Shown: positions 5,043-19,033 of the stretch, piece after piece
Layout: every line of letters starts with the position of its first letter
Numbering within the stretch: the stretch's first letter is position 1
DNA from: Prochlorococcus sp. AG-670-O17
GTDB lineage: Bacteria; Cyanobacteriota; Cyanobacteriia; PCC-6307; Cyanobiaceae
Reading direction: 5' to 3'
Assembly: GCA_003211315.1 (NCBI GenBank)
Contig: QCTC01000001.1
Span: forward strand, 1 to 43,738
Length of the DNA stretch: 43,738 nt
Translations under genes and position numbers: made by a program
Notes under the pieces: model-generated
Told to the model about the DNA's origin: nothing
Databases searched by the model: none
The model's input: only the letters and a program-made list of their open reading frames with translations

Positions 5043-5441
5043 ATGCCTAATAATTATCGGATTGCAAAAGTTTCTTCTTTGTTGAAAAAAGAGGTAACTC
5101 TTATTTTGCAGAATGATTTGGAAAATGATCTATTAAGGAGTAATTTTATTAATATTTCAAAAATAGATTTATCAGGAGATTTGCAATTTTGCAAGATTTA
5201 TATAACTTCAACTGCTGAAGAAGCAATAAGAAAAGAAATTGTTGAAGAATTAAATCTTGCTAAGAGCTATATCAGGCATACTTTAGGTCAAAGAATAGAG
5301 ATGAGAAGAGTACCAGAAATGACTTTTAAAGACGATACAGTATTAGAAAAAGGATTGTCAGTACTCAAGCTCCTTGCGGAATTAAAAAATAAAAAACATA
5401 ATCAAGATTCAAAAGTTGAGGGAAATAATAAAAATGTCTGA
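5043..5441 (+). CDS. rbfA: Ribosome-binding factor A
   Basis: RIAKVSSLLKKEVTLILQNDL...YIRHTLGQRIEMRRVPEMTFKDD. Confidence 0.92.
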   Translation: MPNNYRIAKVSSLLKKEVTLILQNDLENDLLRSNFINISKIDLSGDLQFCKIYITSTAEEAIRKEIVEELNLAKSYIRHTLGQRIEMRRVPEMTFKDDTVLEKGLSVLKLLAELKNKKHNQDSKVEGNNKNV

Positions 5442-6225
5442 GCTCTCTTTGAATCAAAAAAATATAATTATTACTCGATCAAAAGATAAGATATCTGATA
5501 TAAAAAAGTTATTCACTAATAAAGGAGCTCAAATATTTGATTTTCCAGCAATTGATGTTGGATATCCCGATGATTTAAATCCTCTTGATGATGCCTTAAG
5601 CGAAATTAACGATTTTCACTGGATTATTTTTACCAGTAGTAATGGAATACAATTTGTAGATGAGAGATTAAGGAATTTAAATACTTCATTAAAAGAATGT
5701 TCGAAGAAAATAAAAATTGCTGTAGTAGGGGAGAAAACTTCCTTAACTCTAAGCGATTTAGGTATTGAGGCTGATTTCGTCCCCCCAGAATTTGTAGCAG
5801 AAAGTTTAATTGAAAATTTTCCGGTATCAGGATATGGACTCAGAGTTTTTTTGCCAAGAGTTCAAACAGGAGGAAGAAATTTCATAGCTGATGAATTCAG
5901 GAATTCTGGTTCGCGTGTTGTAGAGGTTCCAGCCTATGAAACAAGATGTCCGGATTCAATTCCTGTAGAAACAATAAATGCCATCTCTAACAGAAAAATT
6001 GATGCAATGGTTTTTTCAAGTGGTAAAACAGTATCAAATTCTTCTTTCTTGCTTGAAAAAGAATTTGGGGAAGAATGGTTAACCTATCTAGAAAATGCAA
6101 AATTATTAACTATTGGACCTCAAACTTCAAAAATATGTGAAAAAACTTTTGGCAGAGTTGATAGAGAGGCGGTTAAGTACACTTTTGAAGGATTATTAGA
6201 TGCTGCAATTGATATTTTTAATTAG
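5434..6225 (+). CDS. hemD: Uroporphyrinogen-III synthase
   Basis: IIITRSKDK..., DFHWIIFTSSNGIQF, VPAYETRCP, MVFSSGKTV; ATG at 5434 preferred over 5416. Confidence 0.88.
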   Translation: MSELSLNQKNIIITRSKDKISDIKKLFTNKGAQIFDFPAIDVGYPDDLNPLDDALSEINDFHWIIFTSSNGIQFVDERLRNLNTSLKECSKKIKIAVVGEKTSLTLSDLGIEADFVPPEFVAESLIENFPVSGYGLRVFLPRVQTGGRNFIADEFRNSGSRVVEVPAYETRCPDSIPVETINAISNRKIDAMVFSSGKTVSNSSFLLEKEFGEEWLTYLENAKLLTIGPQTSKICEKTFGRVDREAVKYTFEGLLDAAIDIFN

Positions 6226-6688
6226 TTAATTCATTTTTGTAATTTTTTTCTACTAAATCTCGAAATCTATCAATATTTGCTTGTAATTCATTAGTTACCA
6301 TTTTACCCAGAATTTTTTCTTCCATAAATCGAGCAATCATTCTAGGTAATTCATAGGTAACAGCTAAGTTTACTGATGTTAATTGGTCTCCTTTTGACTC
6401 AAAAATAACAGAACCTTGAGTTGGTAATCCTCCTATAGATTTCCATTTTAATTTATTTTTCTCAATCCTTTCTGTTATTTGCGCCTTCCATTTAAATTTG
6501 AATCCATTAGCAGATAAAGTCCATTCAGTCAGATCAGGTAAAGTTGATGTCTCTTGATCAATTGTTTTTACGGATTCAATCCAGCTCATCCACAGAGACA
6601 TGGAATCCAAATCACTCCAAGTGTTCCAAACGTTATCTAATGGCGCATTTACAATTGTAATTACGTCATGTTTAAGCCAAGTACCCAT
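6218..6688 (-). CDS. SRPBCC (START/COQ10-like) family protein
   Basis: VITIVNAPLDNVWNTWSDLDSMSLWMSWIESV; adjacent to zds. Confidence 0.75.
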   Translation of the reverse strand: MGTWLKHDVITIVNAPLDNVWNTWSDLDSMSLWMSWIESVKTIDQETSTLPDLTEWTLSANGFKFKWKAQITERIEKNKLKWKSIGGLPTQGSVIFESKGDQLTSVNLAVTYELPRMIARFMEEKILGKMVTNELQANIDRFRDLVEKNYKNELTN

Positions 6689-6690
6689 AG

Positions 6691-8172
6691 TTAGCTGACC
6701 GCTAGATTCTTTGCTAATTCGGCTTTCTTATCTAAAATTGCTGCTGCTGCAAGATGACCGCTCATAGTAGCCCCCTCCATTGAATCTATATAGTCTTGTT
6801 TTGTATAACTACCTGCCATAAAGAAATTTGATATTGAAGTCTTTTGATCAGGTCTATATGAGTCCATACCTGGCGATTCTCTATAAAGTGATTGTGGAAC
6901 TTGTACTACATTACTCCAAAGTAATTTTAGATTTTTTGAAGAAGGAAATAGACGACGCACTTCAGAATCAATTTCTTTAGTGATTCTTTCTGTTGATCTA
7001 CCCATCCAACGATCTCCAGGAGTCAAAACACATTGGAGTAAAGATCCCATTCCTTCCTTTCTATAATCTACGGGACTTGCTAAAGCTAAATCTGCGAAAC
7101 AACTGAAAGATGCATCTGCTGAATATAAAAGATTATCTAAACCTGTAGGGTTTTGACTTTTGTTATCATTATTTAATTCAGTAACCCATCCATCATATCT
7201 TAATTGAATTGTTGCTACTGCAACAGCTCTGAGTTTTTTTAAACCCTCAAACTCTTTAAATTGATACCATTCTTTAGGAACTATTTTTTTAATTCCAGGG
7301 ACATCACAAGCAGCGAGAAATGTATCAGCAAATATAGCCTTAGGGCCTTCAGGAGTGGATATTTTAAGTTGCGTGACCGAGTAGGAGGAAGATTCTTTTT
7401 CAAAAATAATTTCGTCCACCTTATGATTTAAGTGGATTTTGCATCCTTTTTTTGTGATGTAATCAACGATAGGTTTTGTTAGCCATTTATGAGGGGATCC
7501 TTTTAAAAGATTAAGTTTAGAGGCTTCAGTCTTAGATGCAAACATCATAAAAATAGTTAACATGCATCTTGCCGATATATCTTGACAATTTATGAAACCT
7601 AATGCGTATGCAATTGGATCCCACATCCTTTCAAGACTTCTTAAGCTTCCGCCATGATTTAAAAACCATTCTTTAAAGCTTATTTTATCCAAGTCTCTTA
7701 TTATGCTCATTGCACCCTCGTAATCTACTAATCCTCTAACTATCGGACTGGTTCCCAAAGCTAATGCATTTCTTAACTTATCTACCCAAGTCAATTGTTC
7801 TGTAGTGAAAAAAGCCTTTAGACCGTTAAAAGGAGCTCCTAAGGCAAATCTAAAATCCAAAGATTTTAAATCGCCACCGTTATTTATAAATAGATGAGTA
7901 TGTTCTTTCGGAAGCAAATTATCTAATGCTCCAACTTTTTTCATGAGTTTAAATAGATTTGCATAGTTATAAAAAAATACATGTAATCCCATTTCTATGT
8001 GGTTACCATCTTTATCTTCCCAACTTCCAACTTTTCCACCCCAGAATGATCTGCTTTCGTAAATCTCTACTTCGTGACCTTCATCAACTAGATTAACTGC
8101 TGCTGTTAAACCCGCTAACCCAGAACCTACTATTGCTATTTTCACTTTTTTATTAGAATTATAACAAATCAA
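6691..8172 (-). CDS. zds: Zeta-carotene desaturase
   Basis: [62 protein letters not shown]. Confidence 0.92.
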
Positions 8173-8245: not shown

Positions 8246-8638
8246 ATGGAAAATATAAAAATAGAAGAAAAAATAAAGACCTCAGATGATGGTAATGGAA
8301 TTTTAATAACCAATGATGCCATAGAGCAAATATCTTCTTTATTGCAGAATCAGACTGATAAGAAAGCTCTAAGAGTTGGGGTAAGATCCGGAGGATGCAG
8401 TGGTATGAGTTATACGATGGATTTTATTGGTGGAGATGAAATAAATGCAGATGATAAAGTATATGATTATTCATTAAGTTCCGAACAAACCTTTAAAGTA
8501 ATATGCGACCCAAAAAGTCTTCTGTATATTTACGGCATGCAACTAGATTTCAGTAAAGATTTAATTGGTGGAGGTTTTAATTTCGTTAATCCTAATGCTT
8601 CACAAACTTGTGGCTGCGGAAGCTCTTTTGCAGTTTAG
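8246..8638 (+). CDS. Iron-sulfur cluster assembly accessory protein (IscA/SufA/ErpA type)
   Basis: LRVGVRSGGCSGMSYTMDFIG ... TCGCGSSF; three conserved Cys. Confidence 0.92.
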   Translation: MENIKIEEKIKTSDDGNGILITNDAIEQISSLLQNQTDKKALRVGVRSGGCSGMSYTMDFIGGDEINADDKVYDYSLSSEQTFKVICDPKSLLYIYGMQLDFSKDLIGGGFNFVNPNASQTCGCGSSFAV

Positions 8639-8649
8639 AAAAAAAATAT

Positions 8650-9078
8650 ATGACAGATGACCTTAATCCAATTGAAACCGATTTCAATGCTGCTTTATCT
8701 AGATATCAAGATGGCCAAGAGTTAATACCAATTGCACAAGATTTTCAAAAAATCATTCAACAAATACCCAACCACTTTGCTGCTTGGACTTGTCTATCTT
8801 GGTTACAGCTTCTATTAAAGAATAATGAAGAAGGATTAGCAGCAGCTAAAGAGGCGGTTCGCTTAAATCAGCAAGACCCGCAAGCAAGAATGAATTTGTC
8901 CTTAGCTCTTTTGGCTACAAATAATAAAGGTGTTAGAGAGCATGTTGAATTACTAAAAAAAATGGCAATGATGATGCCTGATGTAAAGAAAGAGTTAAAA
9001 GATTCAGTTAAAGACGGATTTAATAGATATCCAAACTGGCCAGAATTAACCAAAATTAATAAATGGTTAGAATTTTAA
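8650..9078 (+). CDS. TPR-like conserved cyanobacterial protein
   Basis: MTDDLNPIETDFNAALSRYQDGQ...FAAWTCLSWLQLLLKNNEEGLAAAKEAVRLNQQDPQARMNLSLAL. Confidence 0.75.
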   Translation: MTDDLNPIETDFNAALSRYQDGQELIPIAQDFQKIIQQIPNHFAAWTCLSWLQLLLKNNEEGLAAAKEAVRLNQQDPQARMNLSLALLATNNKGVREHVELLKKMAMMMPDVKKELKDSVKDGFNRYPNWPELTKINKWLEF

Positions 9079-9079
9079 A

Positions 9080-10273
9080 TTGTCCAGAATTTTAATATTA
9101 AGTAATGGACATGGAGAAGATTTATCTGGTAGTTTATTAGCCAAATATTTTGTAAAGAAAGGCGATCTTGTAGATGCACTACCTATTGTAGGTGATGGTG
9201 AAAATTATAAAAAAGTAAATATAAGAATTATGGGTAAAACCAAAAAATTTAGAACTGGTGGTATTGGTTATAATTCTTTTAAGGGCAGAATATTTGAAAT
9301 ATTTGGAGGACAAATAATTTACTTTTTTAAAAAATTATATTTGTCTTATAAATTAAGAAATAAATATGATTTTTATTTAGTAATTGGAGATATAGTTCCT
9401 GTTTTTTTTGCATGGTTTGCAAAAAAAGATTTTTTTACATATTTAGTAGCATATTCTAGTCACTATGAGGGAACATTGAAATTACCTTGGCCCTGTAATT
9501 TTTTTTTAATCTCAAAATATGCAAAAAAAATATATGCTAGGGATTTTCTAACAGCAGATGATTTAACTCAACAATTAAGAAAAAAAGTATCTTTTTTAGG
9601 TAATCCATTTATGGATAAATTTTCTTTTTTTGAAAATAAATCGAAAATCGTCCCTTTTAATATTGGGTTATTTCCTGGAAGTAGATTTCCTGAACTTTTA
9701 GATAATTTGAAATTGATTTTAGAAGTTTTAGAGACAATGTCTAAGTTGAAATATTTTGAGAATATCGCATTCAAGTTTGCAATAGTAAAAGCTCTTTCTA
9801 TAGAAGAAATTAGGCAGATACTAAATCAAAGAAAATGGATTTATATAGAAAAAAAAGGAAAAAATGATGGTCTAGAATTTACATATGGATTTATTACGAT
9901 TAATTTGAACTGGAATCTGTTTGAAGAAATATTATTTAAAAGTAATTTCGTAATAAGTATGGCTGGAACTGCATCAGAGCAAGCAATCGGTTTAGCAAAG
10001 CCAGTTATTCAAATTGAAGGGAACGGTCCGCAATTTACAAAATCTTTTGCAGAAGCTCAAAGACGATTACTTGGTAGATATGTTTTTTGTTCTACAAATT
10101 ATATGAATAAGAAAGATCAAATAAATCAGACAATAAATCTAATCCTTAAAGTTATTTATCTGATAAAGCTAGACAAAAAGTTTTTGATTTCTTGTCTTGA
10201 TAATGCAAATCTAAGAATCGGAGAGAGTAATTCATGTCTTAAGATAATTAATGATATAAAAGGGTTTCATTAA
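9080..10273 (+). CDS. Lipid-A-disaccharide synthase-related glycosyltransferase-like protein
   Basis: ILILSNGHGEDLSGSLLAKYF; GLFPGSRFPELLDNL; SMAGTASEQAIGLAKPVIQIEGNGPQFT; TTG start. Confidence 0.8.
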   Translation: MSRILILSNGHGEDLSGSLLAKYFVKKGDLVDALPIVGDGENYKKVNIRIMGKTKKFRTGGIGYNSFKGRIFEIFGGQIIYFFKKLYLSYKLRNKYDFYLVIGDIVPVFFAWFAKKDFFTYLVAYSSHYEGTLKLPWPCNFFLISKYAKKIYARDFLTADDLTQQLRKKVSFLGNPFMDKFSFFENKSKIVPFNIGLFPGSRFPELLDNLKLILEVLETMSKLKYFENIAFKFAIVKALSIEEIRQILNQRKWIYIEKKGKNDGLEFTYGFITINLNWNLFEEILFKSNFVISMAGTASEQAIGLAKPVIQIEGNGPQFTKSFAEAQRRLLGRYVFCSTNYMNKKDQINQTINLILKVIYLIKLDKKFLISCLDNANLRIGESNSCLKIINDIKGFH

Positions 10274-14593: not shown

Positions 14594-14642
14594 GCTGTAC
14601 CCCTTGTCATAGGGTACATATAAGAGTTAGATTTTTATATAT

Positions 14643-14714
<72 letters not shown>

Positions 14715-14730
14715 TTCAATAAACGTCAAG

Positions 14731-14778
14731 AGACTTCAAGTAACGTCATGCAATGTCATGCTACTTGGGGTCTTTTTT
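14731..14778 (+). terminator. Rho-independent terminator downstream of tRNA-Asn
   Basis: AGACTTCAAGTA / TACTTGGGGTCT can form a 12-bp stem (two G-U), followed by TTTTTT. Confidence 0.7.
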
Positions 14779-15346
14779 AATCTACATAATTTGTTAGTAT
14801 CTTTTTTCTCATATATTTATATTCTTCTTCATCAATTGTTCCTTTCTTAAGTAAATCTTCAACTTCATTAAGTCTGTCTTGCAATGTCATCGGCAACTTC
14901 TTTTTTCTTGATGGACTCAGATAGAAAATTAATAATATAATTCCTCCAATAAAAGGAACAAAACTGATAAGAATCCACCACGGGTTTTTGGCGGCATCTC
15001 TCAGACGACGAACTTGAAGAGAAATACTTGGGATTGAAGAAACTAGTGAAAAAGCATAAATTGGCATCAAAATATATGGTCCTATATCCCTGCCATCTGC
15101 ATACCTATAAGGATTCCCAAATATCCAATAAATATCTTTAAAAAGACAAATTCCAATTATGACTGATAGACCTAAGTGTAATAAAAACCATGCTTGTATG
15201 ATCCAAAAATCCCCTCTTTTTGTAATACCTTTAAAATCTAAAGATCTTTTCCAAAATTCTTTAAAAAAATCTATTTTGTAGGAATTATCAAATGATATTG
15301 AAATAAAACCAATGACATAGAAAAAAATAAAAATTACTGTAAGCAT
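14777..15346 (-). CDS. DUF805-like membrane protein with C-terminal SHOCT-like motif
   Basis: FWKRSLDFKGITKRGDFWIIQAWF...SLQVRRLRDAAKNPWWILISFVPFIGGIILLIFYLSPS; tail LNEVEDLLKKGTIDEEEYKYMRKKIL. Confidence 0.8.
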   Translation of the reverse strand: MLTVIFIFFYVIGFISISFDNSYKIDFFKEFWKRSLDFKGITKRGDFWIIQAWFLLHLGLSVIIGICLFKDIYWIFGNPYRYADGRDIGPYILMPIYAFSLVSSIPSISLQVRRLRDAAKNPWWILISFVPFIGGIILLIFYLSPSRKKKLPMTLQDRLNEVEDLLKKGTIDEEEYKYMRKKILTNYVD

Positions 15347-15401
15347 ATATTGTTCTTTAAATATTCGATATCATTTTAAGTCAATTATTTTTTAAAGCAC
15401 A

Positions 15402-15593
15402 TTACCAATCACTTCTTTTGCCATCTATCCATTGATCAATTTGATATTTAAGAAATCCAATTCTTTGAGTGGATAGTTTATGTTTTGGCGGAAATGTTCC
15501 TTTTTCAACTGCACGATTGATAGTTGAAACAGAAATTCCAATTAGATTTGATACTTCTTTGATGCTCAAAAAATGACGATTTTGATAGTCCAT
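15402..15593 (-). CDS. AlpA/excisionase-like helix-turn-helix protein
   Basis: FLSIKEVSNLIGISVSTINRAVEKGTFPPKHKLSTQRIGFLKYQIDQWIDGK. Confidence 0.82.
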   Translation of the reverse strand: MDYQNRHFLSIKEVSNLIGISVSTINRAVEKGTFPPKHKLSTQRIGFLKYQIDQWIDGKRSDW

Positions 15594-15608
15594 AATGCGA
15601 ATAAAATG

Positions 15609-15630
15609 TGTGGCATTTATGTGGCATTTA
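15609..15630. repeat. Two exact tandem 11-bp repeats TGTGGCATTTA (unit 1 right arm)
   Basis: 15609-15619 and 15620-15630. Confidence 0.9.
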
Positions 15631-15697
15631 TTGGATTTTTCCGATTTTCTTACTTCAGAAGCAGTCAGAGTACTTCAAATCGCCTCTTTAAGACTCT

Positions 15698-15707
15698 CGC
15701 CCGGGGA
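15698..15707 (+). repeat. tRNA-Asn 3'-end core repeat, copy 2
   Basis: CGCCCGGGGA followed by GTTC, as at the tRNA. Confidence 0.9.
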
Positions 15708-15734
15708 GTTCCTTAACAAAATCAAGAACAATCA

Positions 15735-15760
15735 AGAGACCCCATAAGTCTCTTTTTTTT
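15735..15760 (+). terminator. Terminator-like hairpin after core copy 2
   Basis: AGAGAC-cccataa-GTCTCT followed by a T run. Confidence 0.7.
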
Positions 15761-15854
15761 GTGACTATAACTGGAGTTAGAGGAAAATAGATATTCAGCA
15801 CATTCCAATAATAACAATGAGTTTTGACTTTAAAAACTATGATTTTTTGAAAAT

Positions 15855-15898
15855 AGTTAGTGTAAAGTTAGTGTAATTCTAAAAAATAGTTAGTGTAA
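15855..15898. repeat. Three 11-bp motifs AGTTAGTGTAA in 11-bp phase (unit 2 left side)
   Basis: Copies at 15855-15865, 15866-15876 and 15888-15898, with an 11-nt gap before the third. Confidence 0.9.
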
Positions 15899-16068
15899 TT
15901 TCAGAGATATTAATTTACGTATTTATATCAATTTTTGCAATCATTTTTAAATAATTCTGCCGACTCTTCACATCCTAGTTCTGCTGCTTTCTTCAAATCT
16001 TCACAAGCACCTTTCCTATCTTCTCTTTTCCTTGCATACACTGTTAAAGAAACTTGATTTACAGAGAA

Positions 16069-17325
16069 TCAATCTTTTTTATATGTTGCAACTACTTTTG
16101 TATAATCAAATGTAATTTCTTTCTTATCAAGAGCATTTTTATGTTTTGATTCAATTTCTTTCCCGATTTTAATATCTTCATTTGAACCTATTTTGTCTCC
16201 TAACTTTTGTCTAGATTCACCCCGTTTTTGATAAGAAATATAATGTTTAGGATTTATATCTATCGCTTTATTGCAATCATCTAAAGCGCCTTGATAATCG
16301 CACAAACCATATTTAGCAGATCCTCGAAGATAATAAGCACTTGCATAGTTAGAATCAATTTCTATTGCTTTACTAAAGTCATCCATTGCTCCTATATATT
16401 CAAAACTCATTAATTTGCCAAGTCCTCTGTTGCTATAAGAATAAGCATCTTTAAGCGTTATATATAATTCAGGACATGTCTTAACTTGGAAAGACTTATT
16501 TTGCTCATATTGTTCCTTTAAAATACAAACTGCTTCTGAACGATTTTTTTGTGAGTCAGAATCATTAGGATCAATTTCTATTGCTTTAGAGAAGTCATCA
16601 ATAGCACCTTGTATATCTTTTGACATTGCTTTTGCCATTCCTCTATGACTATAAACAGGAGCAATATTAGGATCAATTTCTATTGCTTTAGAGAAGTCAT
16701 CAATAGCACCTTTTAAGTCTTTTAAAATACCTTTGGAAATTCCTCTATTGATATAAATATCAGGGAAAATATCAGGACACTTTTTAGCAAGGTTAGGTTC
16801 CATTTCTATTGCTTTAGTAAAGTCATCTATCGACCCTTGTAAATCTTTTAAACCTTCTTTTATTAATCCTCTATCTACATAAACTTCAGCAATATTAGGA
16901 TTTATTTCTATGCCTTTATTCAGATCATCGATAGAACCTTTTAAATCCTGCTGATACATCTTTACCTTTCCACGCATAATATAAGCGTTCCCACCTTTTT
17001 CTATATTAAAATTTGGATCTGCATCAATAACTGCACTAAATAAATTTTTTGCTGTGTCTAAATTAGAATCGATATAGATAATCCCCATAAAGAAGTAATT
17101 AAAAGAATTATTCATATTTATTTCTTGAGATTTATTAATATCATCGAATGCGCCCTTAGTATCATTAAGTAAATGCTTGCAAAATCCTCGATAAGAATAA
17201 GCATTTCCAAAACTTGAATTTAATTTAATTACTTTATTAAAATTATTTAATGCGTTTTCGAGATCATTATTCCAGAAGTTTTCAACACCAGCATTATAAA
17301 AATTGAGTTCTTCAATCTCAGACAT
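16069..17325 (-). CDS. TPR-repeat protein (reading continues in frame past the TGA to 15928)
   Basis: Repeated 34-aa units ...GAIDDFSKAIEIDPN...; in-frame continuation 15928-16068. Confidence 0.85.
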   Translation of the reverse strand: MSEIEELNFYNAGVENFWNNDLENALNNFNKVIKLNSSFGNAYSYRGFCKHLLNDTKGAFDDINKSQEINMNNSFNYFFMGIIYIDSNLDTAKNLFSAVIDADPNFNIEKGGNAYIMRGKVKMYQQDLKGSIDDLNKGIEINPNIAEVYVDRGLIKEGLKDLQGSIDDFTKAIEMEPNLAKKCPDIFPDIYINRGISKGILKDLKGAIDDFSKAIEIDPNIAPVYSHRGMAKAMSKDIQGAIDDFSKAIEIDPNDSDSQKNRSEAVCILKEQYEQNKSFQVKTCPELYITLKDAYSYSNRGLGKLMSFEYIGAMDDFSKAIEIDSNYASAYYLRGSAKYGLCDYQGALDDCNKAIDINPKHYISYQKRGESRQKLGDKIGSNEDIKIGKEIESKHKNALDKKEITFDYTKVVATYKKD

Positions 17326-17408
17326 AGTTTAATTTTTTAATTCTGATATATATCTAGTTCCTTTTTTTTCTAATGATTCCTAAACTTAAATCTATTAATT
17401 TATAAAAT

Positions 17409-17430
17409 AGTTAGTGTAAAGTTAGTGTAA
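17409..17430. repeat. Two exact tandem 11-bp repeats AGTTAGTGTAA (unit 2 right arm)
   Basis: 17409-17419 and 17420-17430. Confidence 0.9.
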
Positions 17431-17499
17431 TTTAGTAAATATTCAGAATTAGGGGTTCAAGAGTAGTCATACCAAGTCATTAGAGACTTGTTCGAAAAT

Positions 17500-17509
17500 C
17501 GCCCGGGGA
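17500..17509 (+). repeat. tRNA-Asn 3'-end core repeat, copy 3 (extended match)
   Basis: TTCGAAaatCGCCCGGGGAGTTCAATAAAC versus tRNA TTCGAATCCCGCCCGGGGAGTTCAATAAAC. Confidence 0.92.
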
Positions 17510-17526
17510 GTTCAATAAACATCAAT

Positions 17527-17574
17527 AGACTTCAAGTAACTTCATGCAATGTCATGCTACTTGGGGTCTTTTTT
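17527..17574 (+). terminator. Terminator hairpin, copy of the tRNA-Asn terminator
   Basis: AGACTTCAAGTA...TACTTGGGGTCTTTTTT, nearly identical to 14731-14778. Confidence 0.7.
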
Positions 17575-17589
17575 AATCTATATTTTTGC

Positions 17590-18200
17590 TTAGGATTTGT
17601 TTCTCATGTATTTATATTCCTCTTCATCAATAGTGCCTTTTTTAAGTAAGTCTTCTACTTCAGAAAGTCTGTCTTGCAATGTCATAGGTAATTTTTTTGT
17701 TCTTGATGGACTCAGATAGAAAATTAATAATACAATTCCTCCAATAAAAGGAACAAAACTGATAAGAATCCACCACGGGTTTTTGGCGGCATCCCTTAAA
17801 CGTCGCAATTGAATAGAGATACTTGGGATAAAAGTTATTATCGAAAAACCAATAAATAAATTTTAAAAATTTGAATAAACCACAATACATCAAAAAACCG
17901 ATCTATCTGTGCACCACCAAAAGAAAAAATCCTATCTGACTAAAACATTCATTAACTACAGCAATGTTAATGATTAATATCAATAGATAGACATACTGCA
18001 ATAAAAAAAACTTGAGTAATCCAGAAACCCTTTCGTTTTGTAGTACCTCTAAAGTCAAAAGAACTTTTCCAGAATTGCCTGTAATGAATAAAATATTTTT
18101 TTTGAATTTATTGCATTTCTTGGGTCTCTTGAATTGCTATACAAGCAAAGTAGATTCCTGGGATAAAAATCAAAATTATTATAAATATAATTTCTACTAA
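17590..18200 (-). pseudogene. DUF805-SHOCT-like pseudogene
   Basis: C-terminal 72 aa intact (LRDAAKNPWWILISFVPFIGGIVLLIFYLSPS...); upstream reading contains stops; N-terminal FWKSSFDFRGTTKRKGFWITQ remnant near 18010-18080; upstream limit approximate. Confidence 0.8.
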
Positions 18201-18262
18201 AAAAAATCGTTCATTCCCTTTTTATTTTTATTTTTTATAAAAAGTCAATTTATAAAATCACT

Positions 18263-18457
18263 TTACCAAGAATTTATTTTCCCATCTATCCACTGATCAA
18301 TTTGATATTTAAGAAAATCAATTCTCTGAGCAGATAATTTGTGTTTTGGAGGGAATGTACCTTTTTCTACTTGGCGATTGATAGTTGAAACAGATATTCC
18401 AATTAAGTTTGATACCTATTTAATAGTTAAAAAGGGACGATTTTCTTGATTGATCAT
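18263..18457 (-). pseudogene. AlpA-like pseudogene interrupted by one in-frame TAG
   Basis: MINQENRPFLTIK*VSNLIGISVSTINRQVEKGTFPPKHKLSAQRIDFLKYQIDQWIDGKINSW; TAG at 18416-18418 replaces the Glu codon of unit 1. Confidence 0.85.
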
Positions 18458-18478
18458 GGTGGGAATATGGTGGGAATA
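18457..18478. repeat. Two exact tandem 11-bp repeats TGGTGGGAATA (unit 3 right arm)
   Basis: 18457-18467 and 18468-18478. Confidence 0.9.
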
Positions 18479-18546
18479 TTCCTGAAATTCATGACTTTTT
18501 ATATCAATTTAAGTCAGGCACTATTAGGAAAGGTCTACCCGACTTT

Positions 18547-18556
18547 CGCCCGGGGA
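18547..18556 (+). repeat. tRNA-Asn 3'-end core repeat, copy 4
   Basis: CGCCCGGGGA followed by TTTT rather than GTTC. Confidence 0.85.
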
Positions 18557-18673: not shown

Positions 18674-19033
18674 TTAATCATCCCACATGTCTTGTTTACT
18701 CTTTTCGATATTATTTTTCTCAAGCAACTCTAATCTATGATCTTTCGAATCTTCTTCAAAATTTTGTAAGTTTTCGATATTTGCATATTTTTGTTGAACA
18801 TCTAAAATTACAATGTCAAATTGATCCCCATAAAATTTAGACATTTCCATCCATGCTTCCATTTCTTCTTCTTTTCCAATTGTGTCGTTTATCTGATGGC
18901 TAACTATTTCTAAAACAAATTCTTTCAACTCTTTATGACTCATACATTCAACTTTTTTTTGAACGTAAAGTTCTTTTAGATGTTGTAACTGCTTTTTAGA
19001 TAAATCTGTATAAGTAATAGAATTTTTTTTCAT
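18674..19033 (-). CDS. Hypothetical protein
   Basis: 119 aa, no recognised domain. Confidence 0.6.
   Translation of the reverse strand: MKKNSITYTDLSKKQLQHLKELYVQKKVECMSHKELKEFVLEIVSHQINDTIGKEEEMEAWMEMSKFYGDQFDIVILDVQQKYANIENLQNFEEDSKDHRLELLEKNNIEKSKQDMWDD

Follow-up and report, generated by a model that had tools for sequence, protein, structure and literature searches.

Tycheposons, as Hackl et al. in 2023 are said to have described them, are cargo islands at tRNA genes in Prochlorococcus that are moved by tyrosine recombinases.

Attachment sites of related layout are described elsewhere. Helper-embedded PICIs carry a doubled motif with a 12-bp period at about −81 bp of the attP center and a co-oriented copy at about +132 bp (PMC10111431). 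The attP site of ICEMlSymR7A contains five IntS arm motifs, TGKTGGTATC, all of which are needed (PMC11963761), and the usual site layout for excisionases is a set of direct repeats one helical turn apart, to which they bind (PMC7498355). Here we compare with these systems a tRNA-Asn island in a 43,738-nucleotide stretch of Prochlorococcus sp. AG-670-O17 DNA (43.7 kb; "the window" is the whole of this stretch).

Results

The island begins at a tRNA-Asn(GTT) gene, the integration target (14642..14715, + strand; ARAGORN). An exact search of the window found four copies in the island of the core, CGCCCGGGGA, which is derived from tRNA-Asn. The first, located by core search, lies within the tRNA 3' end (14704-14713, + strand), and exact copies on the + strand close units 1, 2, and 3 on the right (15698..15707, 17500..17509, and 18547..18556, respectively). 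Unit 1 (14714-15707) encodes a DUF805 protein and a 63-aa AlpA protein, and unit 2 (15708-17509) encodes a TPR protein; unit 3 (17510-18556) repeats the unit 1 type in broken form. The cargo of unit 1 is a 189-aa DUF805 membrane protein with a SHOCT-like C terminus (14777..15346, − strand; Pfam PF05656, 1.2e-16), and its alpA-like gene (15402..15593, − strand; Phage_AlpA), a proposed excisionase and regulator gene, matches Pfam PF05930 at 3.2e-9 and the AlpA-family PDB chain 8c3t at an E value of 0.0045. The cargo of unit 2 is a 418-aa TPR-repeat protein (16069..17325, − strand; Pfam TPR), and Pfam analysis of the window found neither alpA nor an integrase among the genes of this unit. In unit 3, alpA (18266..18448, − strand; 82% identity to the unit 1 gene) is interrupted by an in-frame TAG, and the DUF805 remnant (17590..17893, − strand) has broken frames. 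The AlpA-type excisionase gene is thus intact in unit 1, broken in unit 3, and absent from unit 2. A DUF7326 gene (window 18674-19033) lies in the right flank of the island; since similar flank DNA is found 3' of the island in many relatives, this region looks like native flank rather than cargo.

A sequence-only reading of this DNA had placed a pair of perfect, abutting 11-mers near the right end of each unit, and all of its coordinates were confirmed: TGTGGCATTTA x2 in unit 1 (15609..15630, + strand, 15 bp upstream of the alpA start), AGTTAGTGTAA x2 in unit 2 (17409..17430, + strand), and TGGTGGGAATA x2 in unit 3 (18457..18478, + strand, abutting or overlapping the alpA start region). The distances from pair to core that it gave, 67, 69, and 68 bp for units 1, 2, and 3, also held. 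Its count of exactly two 11-mers per unit does not apply to unit 2, whose left end (15855..15898, + strand) adds a pair (15855-15876) and a single copy (15888-15898) of AGTTAGTGTAA, so that this unit has the same 11-mer at both ends. It had further placed an AGTCA 30 bp before each core. The position is correct (15663, 17465, and 18512), but AGTCA is not a lone motif; it is the second of four TCA-type motifs that lie at an exact 10-bp spacing between pair and core. This array reads TTCA/GTCA/TTCA/CTC in unit 1 (15655..15687, + strand, with AGTCA inside), TTCA/GTCA/GTCA with a fourth position that is not conserved in unit 2 (17457..17489, + strand), and ATCA/GTCA/ATTA/GTC in unit 3 (18504..18536, + strand). 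We propose the pairs as integrase arm sites and the arrays as AlpA sites.

The window contains four exact tandem 11-mers, all inside the island, whereas 0.05 are expected under an order-3 Markov model, so they are not due to chance; exact tandems at period 10 and at periods 13-24 are absent from the window. The combination of a constant geometry with an 11-mer that differs per unit, first remarked on in these three units, is general among related tRNA-Asn right ends. Allowing one mismatch, 33 of the 45 other right ends that we checked for a missing tandem or altered spacing have a tandem 11-mer; nearly all of these 33 pairs end 67-73 bp before the core (one ends at 88), and any other tandem period is found in only 1-4 of the same 45. 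In 60 related loci (900 kb), of which 40 were picked via AlpA and the rest mainly via integrase, and none via tandems, 47 exact tandems have period 11, compared with 3 of period 10 and 8 of period 12. Among 18 tRNA-Asn loci sampled independently of AlpA and of tandems, 5 had exact tandems at period 11, 1 had them at period 12, and none had them at other periods.

Such tandems might also have been common background in this genome, a concern raised in the sequence-only reading. We estimated the genome-wide background from 578 kb of fetched loci (39 loci, L062-L100). They contain 33 period-11 tandems, of which 28 are no more than 200 bp away from a core copy, a zone that makes up 5% of the bases (29 of 578 kb). 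Away from cores they are scarce, with 5 in 549 kb versus 28 in 29 kb. At periods 8 and 9, 1 of 16 tandems each lies within 200 bp of a core in these loci. The tandem 11-mers are confirmed as real and as general in related loci.

In many units, the two ends match each other. Of 27 units, 13 carry an exact copy of their right-end 11-mer in their own left end, and 18 carry one with up to one mismatch, always co-oriented; opposite-strand copies number 0 of 27. In the control, 11-mers of other elements were found in the left end in 2 of 502 cases exactly and in 19 of 502 with up to one mismatch. L083 is a complete element at tRNA-Asn with the order tRNA, left pair, cargo, int, alpA, right pair, array, and core; its tag is ATGGTCGGGAA, and the tags of L095 (in its arms) and L096 are ATGTTGGGAAT and ATGGTGGGGAA, respectively. 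When the ends of unit 2 are joined as a circle, arm sites lie at −91, −80, +157, +168, and +190 of the core. Arm sites on both sides of the core in a circular form are therefore present in unit 2, whereas units 1 and 3 have the right arm only; no left arm is recognizable in either (best match, 3 mismatches). Because they lack this arm, units 1 and 3 may be stuck or defective, and unit 2, with both arms kept, should be the most movable of the three.

Other loci contain mini-units of 185-227 bp that consist only of a core, one left end, one arm pair, one array, and a core (L068, minus strand, 6814-7040; L064, 6933-7123; L065, 8258-8443; L090, 8210-8421; L086, minus strand, 8485-8712). These look like solo-LTR scars, as might arise from recombination between co-oriented left and right arms. 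L086 (minus strand, 5284-7992) and L087 (543-3008) encode large cargo proteins of 902 and 821 aa, which by eye look like predicted helicase or restriction subunits and are possible defense genes.

The arm and array regions each repeat at a period of their own. Across 33 non-redundant right ends, self-match reaches a z score of 17 at lag 11 in the arm region (−97 to −62) and 15 at lag 10 in the array region (−47 to −6). TCA starts at −43 in 25 of the 33 right ends, at −33 in 27, at −23 in 18, and at −13 in 10. Direct repeats one helical turn apart beside the core, the layout of an excisionase array, are thus present. By eye, other words occur in the same 10-bp phase, namely, GGCA four times in L091 and GAC-type words in L106 and L087. 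In L091 (minus strand, core at 9961), GGCA replaces TCA in exact 10-bp phase and no alpA is recognized, possibly reflecting a different excisionase specificity. AlpA relatives were found in 46 of 266 genus genomes, and AlpA-like small genes are present in many integrase loci. We consider the 10-bp-phased array to be, most likely, the site at which the AlpA excisionase is predicted to bind. The suggestion of directionality-factor sites in the sequence-only reading is accordingly favored for AGTCA, as one of the four phased motifs to which binding is predicted.

Distances between right ends were also compared with distances between their AlpA proteins. Arm distance correlates strongly with array distance (0.71) and weakly with AlpA distance (rho, 0.21), the latter being expected from the physical linkage of AlpA and arms. 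The array follows AlpA no better than the arms do (0.19 versus 0.21), and the grounds for assigning it to AlpA are therefore layout, the shared TCA word, and precedent.

The 11-mers themselves could instead be AlpA operator sites that serve regulation of the protein's own promoter and are unrelated to recombination. AlpA regulates by binding DNA, units 1 and 3 have the pair directly at the start of alpA, and the authors of the helper-embedded PICI study left AlpA open for their doubled motif (PMC10111431). Yet unit 2, which lacks alpA, has a pair at both ends, and in elements with alpA the 11-mer also occurs at the end that is distant from this gene. Moreover, the proposal that specificity is swapped between related elements finds support here, since AlpA proteins with 75-100% identity are paired with unrelated 11-mers, as in window units 1 and 3, where AlpA identity is 82%. 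Where AlpA proteins are at least 70% identical, 65 of 149 unit pairs have 11-mers at least 4 edits apart. The AlpA recognition region STINR (including TINR) is near-invariant and the TCA motif is hardly altered, while the 11-mers differ completely. Family-wide, motif similarity tracks the integrase N terminus (see below). AlpA is thus disfavored both as the binder of the 11-mers and as the protein that sets their sequence, and we regard the operator explanation as improbable.

Among genomes of the genus, 23 of 266 encode P4/CP4-like integrases, as do 42 of 400 in the family. The tandems that adjoin int in Cyanobiaceae loci have an 11-bp period in 15 cases and a 12-bp period in 24. Most int-adjacent motifs fit a TGTTG..GGA-like pattern, and several of these tandems lie ~70 bp from a tRNA-Ser-like core, together with an AlpA-like small gene and 10-bp-phased words of their own. 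The integrases in L079, L082, L083, L095, L096, and L113 have the doubled motif at the same end. The 12-bp arm period occurs in other integrase clades of Cyanobiaceae (e.g., L103, L148, L152, and L207).

Short tandem direct repeats at one helical turn are typical of iterons, and satellites of this kind can replicate. The 11-mers might on that account be iterons, or sites of another replication or packaging protein, that are near the ends by chance. Against this stand the fixed distance to the tRNA core and the strict co-orientation at both ends, the lack of a replication initiator gene in the small window units, and the presence of the same motif class beside integrase genes in both tRNA-Asn and tRNA-Ser elements. 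We therefore consider such an origin highly improbable and retain the reading of the 11-mers as integrase arm sites.

A profile built from 13 of these integrases matches the N-terminal (arm-domain) structures of CP4-like integrases, 3jtz/3rmp, at an E value of 2.2e-4, and it also matches lambda Int, 1z1b. Pfam did not call an arm-binding domain in these integrases, so the link to this domain rests on the profile match to 3jtz. Whether the 11-mer co-varies with a recombinase or with AlpA had been raised as a question, and covariation is seen, more closely with the integrase N-terminal part than with the catalytic part, and only at the rho of 0.21 given above with AlpA. Motif distance correlates with N-terminal distance at a rho of 0.38 and with catalytic distance at 0.30, and in partial Mantel analysis the N-terminal part given the catalytic part retains 0.28 (P = 0.001) versus 0.14 for the catalytic part, all with motifs curated by hand and integrases related by descent. 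Because the motif list was hand-curated and the integrases share ancestry, this correlational result is support and not proof. Taken with the matched ends and the adjacency of P4-like int genes, the N-terminal tracking favors the earlier inference that the 11-mers are recombinase arm sites, to which binding is predicted.

No P4-like integrase was found at an E value of 1e-10 in the genome that carries the island, which is 82% complete, so any movement of the units would need an integrase from elsewhere. Scans of IMG/VR and the GTDB contig set with single integrases for close relatives yielded no confirmed relative. A 389-aa tyrosine recombinase is encoded beside a cobO-like gene at L001 832-2001. 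It has same-size counterparts in most genus genomes, which suggests a fixed, possibly domesticated recombinase, and no tandem of period 9-13 is present in its surroundings. For these two reasons, this resident protein is not favored as the mobilizer.

Junctions in other genomes show insertion from core to core directly. In L222, tRNA-Asn abuts DNA that aligns closely with the right flank in the window from base 38 on, which is what an empty site should look like. Direct fusion of tRNA-Asn to a unit 2 left end occurs in L246 and L068, and in L082, a unit 2-type left end comes right after the right end of another unit. These four junctions indicate that units come and go precisely at the core. 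Of the hallmarks of tycheposons, integration at a tRNA 3' end with core duplication is thus found here, in the four cores and the L222 junction; a tyrosine recombinase gene is encoded in none of units 1-3, as judged from ORFs and Pfam.

The units could nonetheless be dead remnants, old ends left by deletion or recombination, whose geometry has been kept by common descent only. The genes of unit 3 are broken, left arms are missing from units 1 and 3, the solo units of 185-227 bp are scar-like, and the genome, at 82% completeness, has no P4-like integrase. On the other hand, perfect tandems have been kept, the 11-mers differ by unit, and core-to-core joins vary among genomes; these features speak for recent movement of some units at least. 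Even if the units were remnants, the identity of the sites would be the same. We regard remnants as a serious though somewhat doubtful possibility.

Discussion

We conclude, with a probability of roughly 0.83, that the right end of each unit is a P arm in which the 11-mers are integrase arm sites and the TCA array is an AlpA excisionase site, the binding in both cases being predicted from the DNA. This P arm would belong to an attachment site used by a P4/CP4-like tyrosine recombinase, with the doubled 11-mer acting as an arm-type site for the integrase N-terminal domain and having a sequence specific to one integrase variant. On the TCA array, several AlpA-type winged-helix excisionases would align, one per helical turn, and bend the DNA, and the crossover region would lie within the tRNA 3' end, CGCCCGGGGA. 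The co-oriented second copy of the doubled motif, at the left end of complete elements, would form the P' arm, so that arms would flank the core on either side in the circular form. Units 1-3 of the window have no integrase and would need one in trans. With the arms placed immediately upstream of alpA (or alpA-int), integrase bound there probably regulates this promoter as well. Scans of the region detected promoters at the background level (23 found versus 21 expected), so the suggested autoregulation rests on position only.

A further, more tentative idea, which we think rather unlikely, is that the 11-mer is an address tag. Each arm-domain variant would lift only units with its own tag, and integrase-less cargo would ride on a helper and switch helpers by swapping the 11-bp pair. 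Neither the core nor the excisionase can distinguish among the units at this tRNA, since all of them share the core and have nearly identical AlpA proteins.

A rule follows for Prochlorococcus and its relatives: an 11- or 12-bp pair, ~70 bp, a 10-bp-phased array, and a tRNA core mark element ends, which can be found even where there is no integrase, and the rule predicts which integrase moves which cargo. The loci also supply naturally matched pairs of integrase arm domain and DNA tag with which an arm-recognition code could be deciphered, as well as a route to asking how integrase-less cargo moves in very small genomes.

The units resemble tycheposons in being islands with cargo that are inserted at tRNA genes of Prochlorococcus; those in the window span 1-1.8 kb and have no recombinase. 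Arm sites on tycheposons are not described in the literature accessible to us, although an earlier mention in Hackl et al. 2023 is possible. With that proviso, and as far as the accessible literature goes, what is new is the spread of this layout through marine picocyanobacterial islands, a tag that differs by element among units whose AlpA is near-identical and whose core is shared, the presence of the tag in integrase-less units, and a second, 10-bp-phased module.

The layout itself is of a known kind, as the doubled motif of PICIs and the arm sites of ICEMlSymR7A attest. Helper-embedded PICIs share with these loci a tandem motif on both sides of the core (−91/−80 and +157/+168/+190 in unit 2), a tyrosine integrase, and AlpA; however, PICIs have one motif clade-wide and sit in enterobacterial prophage genes, whereas the motif here is element specific, the target is a picocyanobacterial tRNA gene, and integrase-less units carry it too (PMC10111431). 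The 11- and 12-mers here (such as TGTTGGGAATA and TGTTGGTGGATA) are close to the IntS P/arm consensus TGKTGGTATC of ICEMlSymR7A, and a tyrosine integrase with a winged-helix excisionase is common to both, but ICEMlSymR7A is a full conjugative element with its own int and experimentally tested arms, while the sites here are known from sequence (PMC11963761). Finally, the phased array resembles those of lambda Xis, P2 Cox, 186 Apl, and P4 Vis, which are likewise one-turn direct repeats in an attachment site (PMC7498355); compared with them, the units described here have four predicted copies at exactly 10 bp, with TCA in AlpA-bearing units and GGCA or GAC elsewhere.
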